Assembly (NCBI RefSeq): GCF_001037495.1
Contig: NZ_KQ089822.1
Span: forward strand, 4,049,938 to 4,113,937
Direction of reading: 5' to 3'
Source of the DNA: Citrobacter sp. MGH106
GTDB taxonomy: Bacteria > Pseudomonadota > Gammaproteobacteria > Enterobacterales > Enterobacteriaceae
DNA length: 64,000 bases
Position numbers and translations under genes: made by a program. The notes under the pieces were generated by a model that was not told the origin of the DNA, made no database searches, and saw only the letters and a program-made list of their open reading frames with translations. Of this stretch, positions 27,606-60,741 are shown piece by piece; the stretch's first letter is position 1; every line of letters begins with the position of its first letter.

Positions 27606-27673
27606 TGCCCGGTGGCGCGATGCTTACCGGGCCTACGAACGTAGGCCGGATCAGGCAAAGCTGCCATCCGGCA
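27606..27673. repeat. REP pair (BIME) between phnD and phnE
   Basis: Two palindromic units, one with arms TGCCCGG/CCGGGCC (27606-27633) and one with GCCGGAT/ATCCGGC (about 27644-27672). They lie inside the phn operon, so they are transcribed and could stabilise the upstream phnCD message, favouring more PhnD than PhnE. Confidence 0.8.
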
Positions 27674-27695
27674 ATACAGAATAACGGAGCCAAAT

Positions 27696-42081: not shown

Positions 42082-42089
42082 GCCAACTT

Positions 42090-42120
42090 GCCGGATGGCG
42101 GCGCAATTGCCTTATCCGGC
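42090..42120. repeat. REP element between permease and binding-protein genes
   Basis: Arms GCCGGATGGCGGCG and GCCTTATCCGGC, a canonical REP unit. It lies inside the sugar operon. Confidence 0.85.
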
Positions 42121-42154
42121 TTATAACAACAATACCCTACGTGAGGAAACGAGT

Positions 42155-43096: not shown

Positions 43097-43113
43097 CCCC
43101 CCACCACGACACT

Positions 43114-43144
43114 GCCGGATGGCGGCATCAATGCCCTGTCCGGC
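43114..43144. repeat. REP element between binding-protein and isomerase genes
   Basis: Arms GCCGGATGGCGGCAT and TGCCCTGTCCGGC, slightly degenerate. Together with the unit at 42090 it flanks the binding-protein gene. Confidence 0.75.
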
Positions 43145-49728: not shown

Positions 49729-49827
49729 TGCCGGATGAACGTAGTCGTTGTAGGCCTGATAAACGTAGCGCCATCAGGCAACCCAGAGCAGGTTGCCGGA
49801 TGGCGGCGTTGCCTTATCCGGCCCTAC
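49729..49827. repeat. REP cluster (BIME) between yjcO and gltP
   Basis: Three REP units in alternating orientation: a degenerate one from 49729, one with arms GCCTGAT / ATCAGGC (~49753-49780) and a canonical one (49794-49822, GCCGGATGGCGGCG ... CCTTATCCGGC). The gltP stop codon (TAG on the minus strand, 49824-49826) abuts the last unit. Confidence 0.88.
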
Positions 49828-51134
49828 AAGGCGGTCTTCTCAAATTTCCCCAGCACCTCACGCTCATAGGCCAGCGCTTTTTTGCGGTCAAATTTGTGTT
49901 CCCATTTCGCAATAACCAGTACTGCCAGCGCGTTACCCACCACGTTCAGTGCGGTACGCGCCATATCAAGGATACGGTCGACACCGGCAATGAACGCCAG
50001 GCCTTCAAGTGGAATCCCCACGCTGCCAAGCGTAGCCAGCAGCACGACAAAAGATACGCCCGGCACGCCTGCGATCCCTTTCGACGTCACCATCAACGTC
50101 AGCACCAGCACGATTTCCTGCCACAATGACAGATCAATACCGTACAGTTGAGCGATAAAGATAGCGGCGATACTCTGGTACAGCGTCGAACCATCAAGGT
50201 TGAATGAATAACCGGTCGGCACCACGAAGCTGGTGATCGACGCCGGAGCGCCATAGGCTTCCATCTTCTCAATAATACGCGGCAGCACGCTCTCGGAACT
50301 GGCGGTGGAATAGGCCAGAATCAACTCGTCTTTCAGAATACGAATCAGGATCCAGATGCTCAGCCCACACACGCGTGCCACGATACCCAGTACGACCAAC
50401 GCGAAGAACAGGATGGCGAAATGCACCAGCAGTACCAGCTTCGCCAGCGGCCACAGGGATGCAAAACCGAAGTTTGCAACGGTAACGGCAATCAACGCAA
50501 AAACACCGACCGGCGCATAACGCATCACCATGTGCGTCACTTTAAACATGGTTTCAGAGATGGAGCGAAACACGGTAACCAGCGGTTCGCGGTGGGTTGC
50601 TGGCAGAGAAGACAACCCTAAGCCAAACAGCACCGAGAAGAAGATAATCGGCAGCATTTCGCCTTTTGCCATTGATGCAACAATGTTGGTCGGCACCAGT
50701 GACAAAATAGTGCCCATCAGGCCATGCGCGTGGCTCTGCACTTCTGCGGTTGTGCTTTGATATTTCGAAATATCCACGGTCGCCAGTTGCGACATATCAA
50801 CGCCGGTACCGGGCTGGAATACGTTCGCCAGCGTGATACCGAGGATGATCGCAACGGTGGTGATCACTTCGAAATAGATAATGGTTTTTGCGCCAATACG
50901 ACCCAGTTGTTTTGCATCACCGACCCCGGCGATACCTACAATCAGCGTTGAGATAACAATCGGAACTACGATCATTTTGATCAGGTGGATAAAGATATCG
51001 CCTGCCGGGGACAGCAGGTTTAACACCAGCCATTCTCGGCTGTCACTATGGTAATGCAGGTAACTCCCTAGCAAAATGCCCAGCACCATGGCGATCAAAA
51101 TCTGCCAGGCCAGGCTGACTTTCAAATTTTTCAT
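49824..51134 (-). CDS. gltP: Glutamate/aspartate:proton symporter GltP
   Basis: Inner-membrane DAACS-family transporter. It has 436 residues: eight membrane helices and two hairpins; the serine-rich motif AYSTASSESVLPRI and the VPTGYSFNLDGSTLY motif bind substrate. The start at 51134 (MKNLKVSLAWQI) is the family one; GAGGAAG lies 6 bases upstream, and the 12-residue upstream extension is not expected. The C-terminus ends KTAL and its stop falls at the edge of a REP cluster, so the last residues differ from the E. coli protein. Confidence 0.96.
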   Translation of the reverse strand: MKNLKVSLAWQILIAMVLGILLGSYLHYHSDSREWLVLNLLSPAGDIFIHLIKMIVVPIVISTLIVGIAGVGDAKQLGRIGAKTIIYFEVITTVAIILGITLANVFQPGTGVDMSQLATVDISKYQSTTAEVQSHAHGLMGTILSLVPTNIVASMAKGEMLPIIFFSVLFGLGLSSLPATHREPLVTVFRSISETMFKVTHMVMRYAPVGVFALIAVTVANFGFASLWPLAKLVLLVHFAILFFALVVLGIVARVCGLSIWILIRILKDELILAYSTASSESVLPRIIEKMEAYGAPASITSFVVPTGYSFNLDGSTLYQSIAAIFIAQLYGIDLSLWQEIVLVLTLMVTSKGIAGVPGVSFVVLLATLGSVGIPLEGLAFIAGVDRILDMARTALNVVGNALAVLVIAKWEHKFDRKKALAYEREVLGKFEKTAL

Positions 51135-51477: not shown

Positions 51478-52209
51478 TTATTTCTGCCGATTCTGCAACA
51501 ACTTCGCCATATTGATAGAGTCAATCAACTGCACACGATTCACCCTTGGTGAGTTTAAATCCAGTACTTTTTGCCACTGCGAAATAGCCTGATCGTAATC
51601 AGCCTGCATAAACGCATCGGAAGCCAGAAGCATCAACGCGGTGACTTCACTGGCGTCCAGCGCCAGGGCTTTATCTATCATTTCACGGGTTTTTGGTGTC
51701 ATGTGCTGCCCGGCCTGATAGTACAACACCGTCGCCAGAGCCGAGTAGATTTCAGCGTTTTCGCCGCGTAAACGCAGCGCCTGTTCATAGGCCAGCAGCG
51801 CATTATGATACGCATTTTGCCAGAGATAATACTCACCAAGCAGCGCCCACTGCGCGCTGTCCTGCGGGTTAGCGCGGATTTTCTCCTGCAGGGATAGTAG
51901 CTGTTTTTCCTGCACATTTTCAGCAGAAAAGGCGTGTAAAGGGTCCGCCAGACGCGCCTGTTCCACGCGGATCGCCTGCCATTTTGGCATCAGAAAATAA
52001 GCCCCCACGCAGGCTGCTGCCACCAGCATGACCGAGACACTCAGCCACTTCAGCGGAAGCCGACGTGATGAGGTAACAAGCCGCGATGGTTCTGCCAGAT
52101 CATGGCTCAGCTCCTGTTGTAACTGCTCCGCCTCGGGTTGTGCCAGTAGCCGCTGAGCCTGCTGCTGGCTGTGACGCAGTAATATTACACTGACCTGATG
52201 CAGACTCAT
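51478..52209 (-). CDS. nrfG: Heme lyase accessory protein NrfG, with N-terminal extension
   Basis: TPR protein that guides the NrfA C-terminus to the NrfEF heme lyase for attachment of the unusual CXXCK heme. It has 243 residues; E. coli NrfG is about 198. The extra ~45 N-terminal residues ([19 protein letters not shown]..., then a membrane helix at ~53-72) resemble the N-terminal region of CcmI/CycH. TPR units cover ~95-225. GGAG lies 7 bases before the ATG, which overlaps the upstream stop (ATGA at 52206-52209), so the long form is well supported. Confidence 0.9.
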
Positions 52210-54569
52210 TTACGTTCTCCGCGGTTGCGTTGGCTGACTCTCACCCGCCACAGGATAATCCCTCCCAGCAACAACAGGACGCACGGCAATGCCCACAGCA
52301 GCAGCGTTTGTCCAGTCAACGGGGGGTTATAGCGCACAAAATCGCCGTAGCGCTCAGTCATCCAGGTGGTGATTTCCTCCTCGCTTTTCCCCTCTTCCAC
52401 CATGCTGTAAACCTGATGACGCATACTGACCGCCACTGGCGCATTGGATTCCAGTAAGTTTTGGTTCTGGCACTGGGGGCAGCGTAGTTGGCTGGCAATA
52501 AATAGCGCTTTTTCCTGCTGTTGCGGGTTTTCAAAGCGCCAGGTATCCACAATCTGAGCATGGCCGCTAAAGGGCAGAAAAATCAGCACTGCCAGCAGTA
52601 ACATCGTTTTGCCGGATGATGGCGTCGACGCCTTATTCAGCTTGTCTGATTCATCACACACAGGAGCGATAAGCGCAGAATCATCAGGCAACAATCCAGG
52701 ACGCTTCCTCCCTCGCCATCCGCTGAGCAGCGCACCGAGTACCATCAACAACCCGCCGCCCCATACCCAACGCACGCCGGTCTGAATGTAAAAGCGCATC
52801 GCATATCTCTCTCCCCCGGTTTTTTCGCCCATCACCGCATACCAGTCATGAAGCAGATCCCAGCGAATACCCGGCTCCATCATCTGTTGACGCCGTGCCG
52901 CATAAAAACGTCGCTCTGGCACAACGCTGCCGATGTGCTGCCCATCTTCTGAGATAACGATTCGCGCTTTTTCGGTGGTGTAGTTCCCGTGTGCGGCAAG
53001 ATCGAGGCGATCAAAACGAAACGTATAACCTGCCAGTTCAACCTGTTCCCCGGGGCTTAAATTAAGGCTTATCTCGTGCCGACTGCCGCTGGAGAAGATG
53101 ATCCCCGCAGCGAATACCAGCACACCGGTGTGCGCCAGCAATGCCGGAAGCTGGCGGCGTAGTGCCTCCAGAGGCTGAAACCAGAGTCGCACCATTACCG
53201 CAGCGACCAGCCCACCAGCCATTGCGTCCAGCGTACCCAGCGACCAGCACAGCGCAGCCACCAACAAACCAATGGCAAATGGCCAGACCCGTCGGCGCAA
53301 GGAAATACGTGCAGAGCGTTTCCAGAACCCGCCCGCCGACAGACCAAGCACCACCAGCATGAGCAGGCCGAACGGCAGCGTGGCACGATTAAAATAAGGT
53401 GCGCCAACGGAGAGTCGTCCCCAACCAAACAGGCCATAAATCATCGGATAGAGCGTACCGATCAGCACGATTAGCAGCACTGCGCAAAAGAGCAGCAACG
53501 CCGCCAGAATCGACATCTCGCGCGACCAGCCGCCAAAACGCGCAACCTGGTGGACATCCCGCGCCCGCCAGGCATACAGACCAAGTGATGCCAGGCTTAG
53601 CACGGTAAACAGCGCGAACAGCGGCGCGGCGCGGACGTTATCCAGTGCGAAGGCGTGGACAGAAACCAGAATACCGGAACGTACAATCAGCGTACCCAGC
53701 AGCGATAATATCAGCGTCACAATCGCCAGCAGCAGCGACCAGTGACGGAAGATTCCCCGCTGGCAAGTGACATACAGGCTATGCAGCAACGCACTGGCAG
53801 AAAGCCAGGGTAATAAAGAAGCGTTTTCAACCGGGTCCCAGAACCACCAACCGCCCCAACCCAGCTCGCAATACGCCCACCAGGAACCGAGGATGATACC
53901 CAACGTCAGAGCGCACCAGCCAGGCAGCGCCCAGCGCCAGCATACCCAGGCGGTCGCCGCGCTAAAGCTCCCGCGTAGCAGCGAAGCCAGCGCTACGCCA
54001 GCCGCCACCATCAGGCCACCGTAGCCAAGATAGAGCAGCGGCGGGTGGAAGATAAGTCCAGGGTGTTGCAGCATCGGATTAAGGTCGCGCCCTTCAATCG
54101 CTGGCGGGAAGATACGCACAAACGGATCAGACCACACCACCACAAACAGCAGGAGCAGAGCTGTCATGATTGACAGAACGCTGAGAGTCAGCGGAAACAG
54201 CGTGTCCGGTTCCCGCCGATAGCGCCAGGCGAACAGCGCACTCCAGCCGGAAAGAAACAGTACCCACAACAGGAGCGATCCTTCATGACCGCCCCATACC
54301 GCCGCAAGTTTTAACCCCCACGGCAGCAGGCTGTAACTATGCTGGGCAACGTAAACAACGGAGAAATCGCTGGTCAGAAAACAGAAAGCCAGAATGGCAA
54401 AAGCCAGCAGCAGCAGTGTAAATTGCGTCCATACGCCAACGCTTGCCAGACGCATCACGCCCAGCCAGCGCAGGCGAACACCCACCAGCGCGGCAAGCGG
54501 GGTCAACACGTTGACCCCGAGACTTAACAGCAGTGCCAGAAAACCGGCTTCAGGAAGGAATATTTCCAG
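52206..54569 (-). CDS. nrfE: NrfE-NrfF fused cytochrome c nitrite reductase heme lyase
   Basis: One continuous frame carrying two proteins that are separate in E. coli. NrfE (CcmF-like, ~12-13 membrane helices) holds the heme-handling motif [13 protein letters not shown] and the tryptophan-rich [18 protein letters not shown]. NrfF follows from base 52604 (signal-like helix, then [17 protein letters not shown], the CXXC thioreduction motif, and a C-terminal membrane helix). The ~32-residue linker (52605-52700) is encoded by a degenerate REP pair. No Shine-Dalgarno precedes the NrfF Met. Start: the conserved segment [15 protein letters not shown] lies upstream of the first GTG (54509), so initiation at CTG 54569 (AGGG 6 bases before) or ATT 54572 is proposed. 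It overlaps nrfG. Confidence 0.88.
52611..52690. repeat. Degenerate REP pair inside the nrfEF frame
   Basis: GCCGGATGATGGCG followed by CGCCTTATTCAGC (52611-52641) matches a REP unit with a few changes; AGCGATAAGCGC...ATCATCAGGCA (about 52664-52690) matches a second one in opposite orientation. It sits exactly where the nrfE-nrfF gap would be and is read through in frame as a linker without stops. Confidence 0.7.
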
Positions 54570-54582
54570 AATTCACCCTACC

Positions 54583-55539
54583 TTATGCAACTGTAAGCTG
54601 GCCTGCGTACAGAATAAAAAAGCGCAGTAACAGCACTCCTGTCAGACTGGCGCCACACACCGCCAGAACGCCGTGAAACGTCGAGCTACGATTAGCCCAG
54701 GGTTTCAGCAGCATCGGTAGTATCAGCCCAAGCCCGGCAACGCCAAGCCAGAACCACCAGGTCCAGAAACCACCACCCAGCGCTGCTGCCAGTGCACGCA
54801 TTTTGCCGTCATCGCCTAATGCCAGCCCCACAAAGAACGCTGCCAGCAGGAAGATCTCCAGCCAGACAACCGGGGTTTCCATACGGTGAACAAAGTGCGC
54901 CTCAGTACTGTGCGGGTTGCTGCGATGGCGTAATGCCATGGCAATTAACGCAACCGCCGCCCCGGAGGAGATCCCGGAGAACAGGAACAGGACCGGCAGG
55001 ATCGGGTTATTCAGGAACGGATAGGATTTCAGCGCCGACAGCAGGAACCCGGTATATGCCCCGAGCAGTACCGCCAGCACCAGCATTACTGTTTCCAGCA
55101 GACGATGGAACGGCGTTATCAGCGCCAGCAGTTTCTGCACGATACTCAGACGCGGGATGAAGCGCTGTTGCAGGGCAATAACATCTTTTTCGAAGATTTT
55201 TGCCAGCCACAACACCAGCACCACCATGTACAACTGAAACAGCATGACCCCCATCGACATCACCGAAGTGAAGCTGTAGTGGAACATCAGTTTCCAGAAG
55301 GTCCACGGTCGCGTCAGGTGGAATACCAGAATCAACAGACCAAGAATAATCGCTCCCGGCCCGAGTACCAGCGTGGTGCGCAGCAGCGTACTGTCGGCAC
55401 CGCCCGCTTCCGGGTGCAGCCGGCGCAGCAATACCGACAACGTCACCAGTCCAGCGGATATGCCAATCAGAAACAGATAGATGGCAATGGGCCAATCCCA
55501 CACCAGTGATTCAAAATGAAAAGCAGAAGCGGGTGTCAT
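54583..55539 (-). CDS. nrfD: Nitrite reductase membrane quinol dehydrogenase subunit NrfD
   Basis: Membrane subunit that oxidises menaquinol and passes electrons to NrfC. It has 318 residues with eight or nine membrane helices (PsrC/NrfD family), including the conserved N-terminal VWDWPIAIYLFLIGISAG and an acidic residue-containing HRLLETVMLVLAVLLG. It overlaps nrfC by four bases. Confidence 0.95.
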   Translation of the reverse strand: MTPASAFHFESLVWDWPIAIYLFLIGISAGLVTLSVLLRRLHPEAGGADSTLLRTTLVLGPGAIILGLLILVFHLTRPWTFWKLMFHYSFTSVMSMGVMLFQLYMVVLVLWLAKIFEKDVIALQQRFIPRLSIVQKLLALITPFHRLLETVMLVLAVLLGAYTGFLLSALKSYPFLNNPILPVLFLFSGISSGAAVALIAMALRHRSNPHSTEAHFVHRMETPVVWLEIFLLAAFFVGLALGDDGKMRALAAALGGGFWTWWFWLGVAGLGLILPMLLKPWANRSSTFHGVLAVCGASLTGVLLLRFFILYAGQLTVA

Positions 55540-56207
55540 TGGCTCACCTCCCCATATTTAAAGGGAACGCGGTAGACCTTCGGTTTTGTGCCCAGCGCCA
55601 GCTTGTAACGGTAGGTGTTTTTCTGGTGCAACAAACGAGAGATGTCGCTGTTGGGATCGTCCAGATTACCGAACGTCAACGCTTTCGTCGGACACGACTC
55701 AACGCAGGCAGGCTGTTTGCCCGCTTTCAGGTTGGTTTTCCGACAGAAATCGCATTTATCCGCCGTCTTATTGACCGGGTGGATAAATCGCACACGGTAA
55801 GGACAAGCGGCAATGCAATACTGGCAGCCGACGCAAAGATCCGGGTTTACATCCACAATCCCGGTGGCGGCATCGCGATACGACGCCCCCGTCGGGCAGA
55901 CGTCAACACAGGGAGCATGATCGCAGTGCTGGCAAGAGTGACGGAAGAAGCGGTACTTCACATCGGGAAACGTCCCCAGCGGCTCACTACGAATAATCGT
56001 CAGACGCGAGACGCCTTCTGGCACGTTGTTGACTTCCCGACAGGCATCCATACAGGCAGTGCAGCCGATGCATAATGACTCATCATGTATCATGCCGTAA
56101 CGGACGCCGTTGATATTCAACGTCTTCGCCACAACGCGTCCCGCCGTCCCGCTCACAGCCACCAGCGCGCTGACGCCGGTGATAAACTGGCGACGAGAGC
56201 AACTCAT
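55536..56207 (-). CDS. nrfC: Nitrite reductase iron-sulfur subunit NrfC
   Basis: Periplasmic ferredoxin-like subunit transferring electrons from NrfD to NrfB. It has 223 residues: a Tat-type signal ([10 protein letters not shown], then a hydrophobic stretch ~10-28) and four [4Fe-4S] motifs: [38 protein letters not shown] and CDFC...CVESCP. It overlaps nrfB and nrfD by four bases each. Confidence 0.96.
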
Positions 56208-56770
56208 GGATGCTCCTTAAGCAAGGGAATAGACGCCGGGTTAAAGTTTGGATTGTTACGCTGATCGCTGTGGCAATCGACGCAAATCTTAATCCGTCCT
56301 TTATCGCTTAGCGTCTGCATCGTGTCTTGCTTCGGATGCAATGAGTGACAGCTGGCACAGGCCACTTTAGTCACGTGGACATCATGCGGCCAGAACGCTT
56401 TTTGCAACTGCTCAGGCAGGTGGCAGGACATACAGACGCTGTTCTGCTGCTCCACGTTGTACATCGGCTCATTAAAGCGCATCACATCCTTCACTCCTTC
56501 ACGGTGATTCGGGGATGGCTGGCCGTGACAGTTGGTACAGGTAACCGGCAGTTTATTATTCGGGTTGATGACTTGTGCATGTTTACCATGCATGCCTTCA
56601 GTGTCTGGCTTATGACAATCCAGACAGGCGGCATCCGGGTTACGCTGTTGTGTTACCGTCCAGCGTTGCTCCGATTCCTGTGGCGTTGGCGTGGCGGTTA
56701 TCCCGCACAGGCTCCAGAACAGGCCTGACGCCAGCACCCCAGCAGTTAATAACGAACGTAATACGCTCAT
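56204..56770 (-). CDS. nrfB: Pentaheme cytochrome NrfB
   Basis: Periplasmic five-heme c-type cytochrome, electron donor to NrfA. It has 188 residues with a signal peptide (~residues 1-27) and five CXXCH sites: CLDCH, CTNCH, CMSCH, CASCH and CVDCH. The ATG at 56770 has GGAG 5 bases before it; a GTG two codons upstream is within that site and not used. nrfA lies 44 bases upstream. Confidence 0.96.
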
Positions 56771-56814
56771 ATTCACTCCGTTGAGTTATCCGCCCCTTGC
56801 GAGGCGGAATGGGG

Positions 56815-60643
<3,829 letters not shown>

Positions 60644-60657
60644 CAAAGTCCTGAAAA

Positions 60658-60692
60658 TGCCGGATGGCGACGCCAAAACGTCTTATCCGGCC
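60658..60692. repeat. REP element after acs
   Basis: Arms TGCCGGATGGCGACG and CGTCTTATCCGGCC around a short centre, 15 bases after the acs stop. Confidence 0.85.
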
Positions 60693-60741
60693 TACAAATC
60701 TGACCCTACCCTCTCTTCACCGGGAGGGAAATATAAAAACC

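Follow-up and report, generated by a model that had tools for sequence, protein, structure and literature searches.

Fusions of heme lyase subunits and REPs read in frame within genes are both known kinds of arrangement. The E. coli proteins NrfE and NrfF, together with NrfG, constitute the CXXCK heme lyase for NrfA and are the closest described counterpart of the locus reported here, with the same domains, gene order and operon. The accessible portions of PMC12285233 and PMC3601427 treat NrfE, NrfF and NrfG as separate proteins. The same portions describe CcmH of the paralogous E. coli heme lyase as a fusion of two subunits, CcmH and CcmI (PMC3601427, PMC12285233), which likewise joins parts of a lyase; CcmH unites an F-like with a G-like part, whereas the present locus joins the F-like part to the CcmF-like lyase through repeat DNA. 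Fused cytochrome c synthase subunits are also found in CcsBA and NrfI of System II, NrfI acting on CXXCK, according to the part of PMC12285233 that was available. The architecture of CcsBA and NrfI differs from that of the present fusion. Neither is known to contain a CcmH-like part.

REPs inside coding regions and the palindromic elements of Rickettsia (RPE) are likewise palindromes inserted in frame and translated, as the available text of PMC3733652 describes, with the reservation that N-terminal cases may reflect misannotation. Unlike these elements, the repeat at the present locus lies at a start/stop overlap and two genes have been merged. FbcH of Bradyrhizobium is a cytochrome b/c1 precursor in which a membrane protein and a signal-bearing anchored protein are joined and then cut at the internal signal; its proteins differ from those of NrfEF, for which cleavage is a rule-based prediction. 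Neither an NrfE-NrfF fusion nor a REP in nrfF was found in the literature searched, mostly openly readable main texts, and as far as this search reaches, the combination of the two, its unfused intermediates and a triple fusion appear unreported.

The window, a 64,000-nucleotide stretch of Citrobacter sp. MGH106 (genome G000), carries NrfE and NrfF in one frame, in contrast to E. coli, where nrfE and nrfF are separate genes with an 8-bp overlap. The initial annotation had noticed that no stop separates the two parts and had placed a linker of about 32 codons at 52605-52700; both points were borne out, the linker coordinates exactly. Positions 52206-54569 on the minus strand form a single open frame of 787 amino acids plus stop, counted from a CTG and free of internal stops (788 from stop to stop; 767 amino acids from the first GTG in the open-frame listing), and the family models of both proteins fall on this one product. 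It consists of a whole NrfE and a whole NrfF with a linker of 32 codons between them. The features of the locus are as follows.

56815-58251, minus strand: nrfA, open frame, named from gene order and the annotated E. coli operon
56204-56776, minus strand: nrfB, open frame, named in the same way
55536-56207, minus strand: nrfC, open frame, named in the same way
54583-55539, minus strand: nrfD, open frame, named in the same way
52206..54569, minus strand: fused nrfEF, 787 aa and a stop, beginning with the CTG at 54569-54567
52701..54569, minus strand: NrfE part, a CcmF-like heme lyase scoring over the cut-offs of NF007691 and TIGR00353; related solved structure 6zmq (CcmF), E 7.2e-66
53166..53333, minus strand: NrfE region with about 47 extra residues (residues about 413-468), from alignment
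52704..52712, minus strand: ancestral nrfF Shine-Dalgarno, GGGAGGAAG, retained inside the fused frame
52605..52700, minus strand: REP-derived linker, 32 codons (residues 624-655), from alignment with relatives; pLDDT <50 over residues 619-675
52660..52691, minus strand: upstream REP remnant, TTGCCTGATG..., seen only via alignment with the intact unit of G003
52609..52641, plus strand: downstream REP, degenerate and in opposite orientation, nhmmer E 5.7e-5
52557..52604, minus strand: former NrfF signal peptide, predicted signal-peptidase I site after HA
52209..52556, minus strand: mature NrfF part; RCPQC, with C-x-x-C at 52470-52481; C-terminal membrane helix; solved relatives 2hl7 and 2kw0
51478..52209, minus strand: nrfG, NF007692; ATGA overlap with the nrfEF stop

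On the fused protein, the NCBIfam model NF007691 (NrfE) scored 1040.9 bits against a cut-off of 394 and TIGR00353 scored 778.4 against 569.05, while a further NrfE model, TIGR03145, stayed below its curated cut-off (599.1 against 927.3). The NrfF model TIGR03147 reached 193.7 bits (cut-off 159.2), with the C-x-x-C present as RCPQC, and the Pfam families CcmF_C, Cytochrom_C_asm and CcmH were all matched by the same protein. The WWD segment, which we take to be the haem-handling segment of NrfE and CcmF, is present in the NrfE translation and in the consensus of the NrfE alignment, and CWSCK is present in the adjoining NrfA. The names of nrfABCD (54583..58251) derive from gene order and comparison with the E. 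coli operon rather than from family libraries.

Two features of the NrfE part stand apart from the junction. CTG is the nrfE start in 33 of the 36 starts read, the window included (two are TTG and one CCA), and the RefSeq start of E. coli nrfE (L113:3501) falls on the same CTG, so this rare start codon is conserved. The stretch of about 47 residues, which is likely to form two membrane segments, recurs in G109, G221, G057 and G076 and is absent from the 16 other genomes of the genus, from four and three rows of two further genera and from E. coli, in a comparison whose underlying NrfE alignment left four named loci outside; this patchy occurrence points to repeated loss or exchange.

The fusion extends beyond the window genome, and the reading that it is limited to G000 was rejected. 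Four of the 17 genomes of the genus are fused (G000, G003, G007 and G015), the other 13 having two frames, and a family sample of 295 genomes yielded two more, G273 and G241, one of five and one of eight genomes in their respective genera. In a second family sample, 4 of 392 were fused (G000, G007, G241 and G273) at E 1e-85, a level that could miss more diverged fusions. An order-wide search with an E limit of 1e-38 gave matches in 8 of 394 and revealed no further fusion, at a threshold that a more diverged one could escape. When the whole fused protein was compared with genome contigs, the best 80 of 593 matches were mostly distant CcmF or NrfE. G241 (L117) goes further, with NrfE, NrfF and NrfG in one frame of 935 amino acids. 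For E. coli, the separateness of nrfE and nrfF, given as known in the initial annotation, agrees with 29 of the 30 records listed out of 5380, the remaining one having a ccmF match only, and with the one locus inspected. In G193 (L146), nrfF alone was matched at E 1e-45 and nrfE had no match at that level. In L034, L035, G200, G277, G105 and G287, NrfF lies within open frames of about 350-380 amino acids, which suggests NrfF-NrfG fusions in other genera.

Junctions were read in 39 genomes: all 17 of the genus, four of the five and all eight in the two further genera, and ten more, among them a named E. coli. G193, the remaining member of the genus of G273, was left out because the search pattern did not pick up its nrfE. 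In every one of the 33 unfused junctions, the stop of nrfE is overlapped by the ATG of nrfF (ATGCGTAA and similar), which has a Shine-Dalgarno of -7.3 to -12.6 kcal/mol; given this overlap, there was no ancestral spacer between the genes. Twenty of the 33 carry a REP, a pair of REPs or a remnant in frame between the nrfF ATG and the signal peptide at a profile E of 1e-3 or lower, the weakest cases being G309 and G310 with E near 8e-4; the other 13, E. coli included, have none, and all six fused junctions have one. The idea that a non-coding intergenic palindrome had been domesticated as the linker is accordingly unsupported, and the REP as intergenic spacer was rejected. Fusion was found in 6 of 26 junctions with a REP and in 0 of 13 without, an association that is suggestive only, as the junction rows are best hits and not a random draw. 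In the unfused genomes G001, G004, G005, G009 and G010, the Shine-Dalgarno energy is unfavourable for every start within the tail (0.3 to 0.5 kcal/mol), and for this reason the REP in their nrfF tail is very probably translated. These several unfused relatives without a Shine-Dalgarno-backed internal start stand against the misannotation caution voiced in the available text of PMC3733652.

By comparison with relatives, in which near-perfect copies occur, the window's linker appears to be a pair of opposed REPs that has decayed. The description of the linker as two degenerate REP units in opposite orientation held for the downstream unit, which was recovered by the REP profile at E 5.7e-5, and less directly for the upstream unit (about 52660-52691), on which the profile made no call and which was recognized by alignment. 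The profile was seeded from the junctions of five relatives and not from that of the window; the relatives' junctions match it with E down to 3.6e-16, scores that are not independent for the five seed rows, which, like rows identical to them, match by construction. The relatives' junctions display the features of GTAG-type REPs and BIMEs, namely a GTAG-tailed palindrome, opposed pairs and many genome copies. Exact-core copies number 27 in the G000 genome against 0 for a reversed-pattern control. A simple consensus scan of the window allowing up to three mismatches hit four places, none in the linker, with 1.02 expected by chance. Elsewhere in the window, well-kept REPs lie at 42088-42126, 49793-49829 and 60657-60697, and the profile detected weaker ones near 27641-27674 and 43113-43144. 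By a crude codon score, none of the 27 copies is clearly intragenic, one of them, L184, sitting at the upstream edge of a long frame's open part. The REP-transposase family PF01797 had no match in G000, so a local REP transposase was rejected as the present agent; it was matched in 8 of the 17 genomes of the genus, strongly and at full length only in G005, G008 and G013 and weakly or partially in the others.

The REP pair was found in both orientations, the unfused type of the genus reading LPDGGVNALSG... and the fused type LPDGAALIRPT.... Both readings belong to the open frames of the element; as four of its six frames are open in either type, openness by itself is unremarkable. In the decayed G000 linker, the frame is still open and without indels although 27 of 96 positions differ from G003: the chance of an open frame after 27 random changes is 0.53, which makes the open frame weak evidence.

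Comparison of the G000 junction with that of the unfused G076 suggested how the two frames came into register. The best match with a single gap calls for a 13-nt deletion and leaves 5 mismatches over 37 positions; the overlapping nrfF start and nrfE stop lie in the part that is lost. G003, G273 and G007 are also 13 nt short relative to G076, with 7 to 9 mismatches; by fewest mismatches the gap falls a few bases earlier in G003, G007 and G273 than in G000, whereas MAFFT placed it at one position in all five. The G000 and G003 linkers are likely, though not certain, to share a single origin. The junction of G241 is unlike the others, and at least two fusion origins were counted on that ground.

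We regard it as quite probable that this is a genuine fusion made in two steps, with REPs entering nrfF and a 13-nt deletion following, and that the resulting NrfEF precursor is likely cut by signal peptidase. In the first step, an opposed REP pair (BIME) would have entered the nrfF frame just past the start codon that overlaps the nrfE stop, leaving NrfF with a REP-coded N-terminal tail ahead of its signal peptide. In the second, a net deletion of 13 nt at the overlap would have removed stop and start and put the frames in register, whereupon the fused gene would be translated as one NrfEF precursor. The NrfF signal would carry the NrfF domain to the periplasm, signal peptidase I would most likely cut between HA and Q to give NrfE and NrfF as two chains in a 1:1 ratio, and the product would load the CXXCK haem of NrfA.

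A different reading, that the fusion is a neutral accident tolerated in a dispensable gene and without effect, appears somewhat unlikely. It would be consistent with the rarity of the fusion and with the report, in the accessible part of PMC3601427, that NrfF of E. coli is not essential, so that a crippled NrfF might be tolerated. The linker of G000 likewise looks near-neutral: between G000 and G003 its dN is 0.323 and dS 0.449, and its folding energy has weakened from the -43.9 kcal/mol of G003 to -28.4 kcal/mol, a loss of the hairpin as expected from random change, so strong protein-level selection on the linker is unsupported in G000. The flanking domains argue the other way. For the same pair, dN and dS are 0.128 and 1.284 in the NrfE C-terminus and 0.134 and 1.002 in NrfF, values by which both are clearly judged to be under purifying selection; across the ten pairwise comparisons among G000, G003, G007, G015 and G273, NrfF dN/dS lies between 0.06 and 0.31, and the C-x-x-C and signal site are intact.

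The fused junction also appears to have crossed genera, which again speaks against a mere accident. Among G003, G007, G015 and G273, the linkers show 0 to 2 differences over 96 positions, compared with a dS of 0.13 to 0.86 in the coding flanks. The near-identical tract, about 160 bp long, continues beyond the REP into the signal with boundaries that vary by pair, for which reason recombination is preferred over strong nucleotide-level constraint on the linker DNA, which may be an alternative; movement of the fused junction between species by recombination would be the simplest reading. In the trees, G273 falls with its own genus in the N-terminal part of NrfE and with G015 in NrfF. The fused rows are scattered, with six changes of the fused label on the NrfE tree (35 rows, without G057, G058, G076 and G294, four of the 39) and five on the NrfF tree (39 rows), eight further rows lying outside the trees; shuffled labels gave as few changes in 500 of 500 cases on the former and 160 of 500 on the latter, so the fused label is little or no more clustered than shuffled ones.

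A permanent tether, in which the chain stays uncut, NrfE and NrfF are a single protein and the old signal serves as a membrane helix within it, is considered unlikely. It is compatible with the single frame, with the joining of NrfG as well in G241 and with the view in the available portions of PMC12285233 and PMC3601427 that NrfE, NrfF and NrfG act together. The initial annotation had taken the NrfF N-terminal helix for such an uncleaved internal membrane segment, and this became doubtful when the signals were assessed by the -3/-1 rule and by scales of membrane preference. In each of the 39 proteins, 6 fused and 33 unfused, position -1 is Ala and position -3 a small residue, so that the internal signal of every fused protein obeys the rule, as far as a rule alone can tell. 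The hydrophobic core of the six fused signals is a 15-residue uncharged stretch with Pro, among the least membrane-favouring of the set, and the insertion energy of the signal, summed over 19 residues, comes to 2.2 to 4.3, compared with -0.8 to -2.9 for the proteins' own C-terminal helices; some unfused signals, that of E. coli included, score equally high, and the measure therefore ranks the helix and is no proof of cleavage. The short core and the retained small-x-Ala site before Gln make cleavage likelier than a permanent tether, and cutting of the fused precursor by signal peptidase, with two chains made 1:1, is the reading we prefer on these sequence features.

The NrfE C-terminus and the old NrfF N-terminus should both be cytoplasmic, with a positive RGRKR before the linker, so the fusion would leave the topology undisturbed. 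In the structure model, the NrfE helices are mostly confident and the NrfF domain is helical, followed by a helix at the C-terminus (helices 682-741 and 753-786); over the linker and signal, residues 619-675, its pLDDT is below 50 and it decides nothing on topology.

It is also improbable, in our estimate, that NrfF is additionally made on its own from the TTG codons at 52689-52694 within a long frame that is itself real. The internal NrfF ATG (52602-52604) has a Shine-Dalgarno of -1.7 kcal/mol, compared with the -7.3 to -12.6 kcal/mol of the unfused overlap ATGs, and the remark that this Met lacks a Shine-Dalgarno was thus largely correct. The ancestral Shine-Dalgarno persists ahead of the in-frame TTG codons, giving -11.4 and -9.3 kcal/mol for those at -47 and -46 in G000, and a start there would produce a tail close in length to those of the 20 unfused relatives that carry a REP (-38 to -54); some free NrfF from TTG is thus possible. 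Against this, GGAGG stands 12 nt from the TTG in G000 and 15 in G003, compared with 7 from the ancestral ATG of G001, a distance of which the energies take no account. TTG is moreover weak as a start, and its Shine-Dalgarno, -9.3 kcal/mol in G003, G015 and G273, is only -5.7 in G007. Such a product would be extra to the fused protein and not a substitute for it: synthesis of NrfE and NrfF would be 1:1 if the chain is made whole, and the TTG start could add free NrfF. Finally, a sequencing or assembly error, which as a one-base indel in the linker had been named as refuting the fusion, has a negligible chance of being the explanation and was rejected, since the fusion occurs in five further genomes of three genera and the junction of G003, G007, G015 and G273 is the same, its 32 codons free of indels; only one error common to several assemblies would escape this argument.

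Beyond the two-step fusion with likely signal-peptidase processing, a wider proposal is offered tentatively and may well prove too broad. The start-stop overlap could be a recurrent landing place of translated REPs, at which the lyase genes were welded at least twice, once as NrfEFG, and from which one allele would spread between genera as a short recombining cassette; a selfish repeat would in this way build signal-peptidase-processed multi-domain membrane proteins. The junctions form a natural series from overlapping genes through a REP in the second gene and the loss of stop and start to fusion and triple fusion, and this series shows how repeat insertion can fuse operon genes. NrfEF offers a case in which to ask if a polytopic membrane protein can have an internal signal peptide excised, and the 935-aa NrfEFG of G241 is a natural single-gene heme lyase for studying the cooperation of NrfE, NrfF and NrfG on the CXXCK haem.
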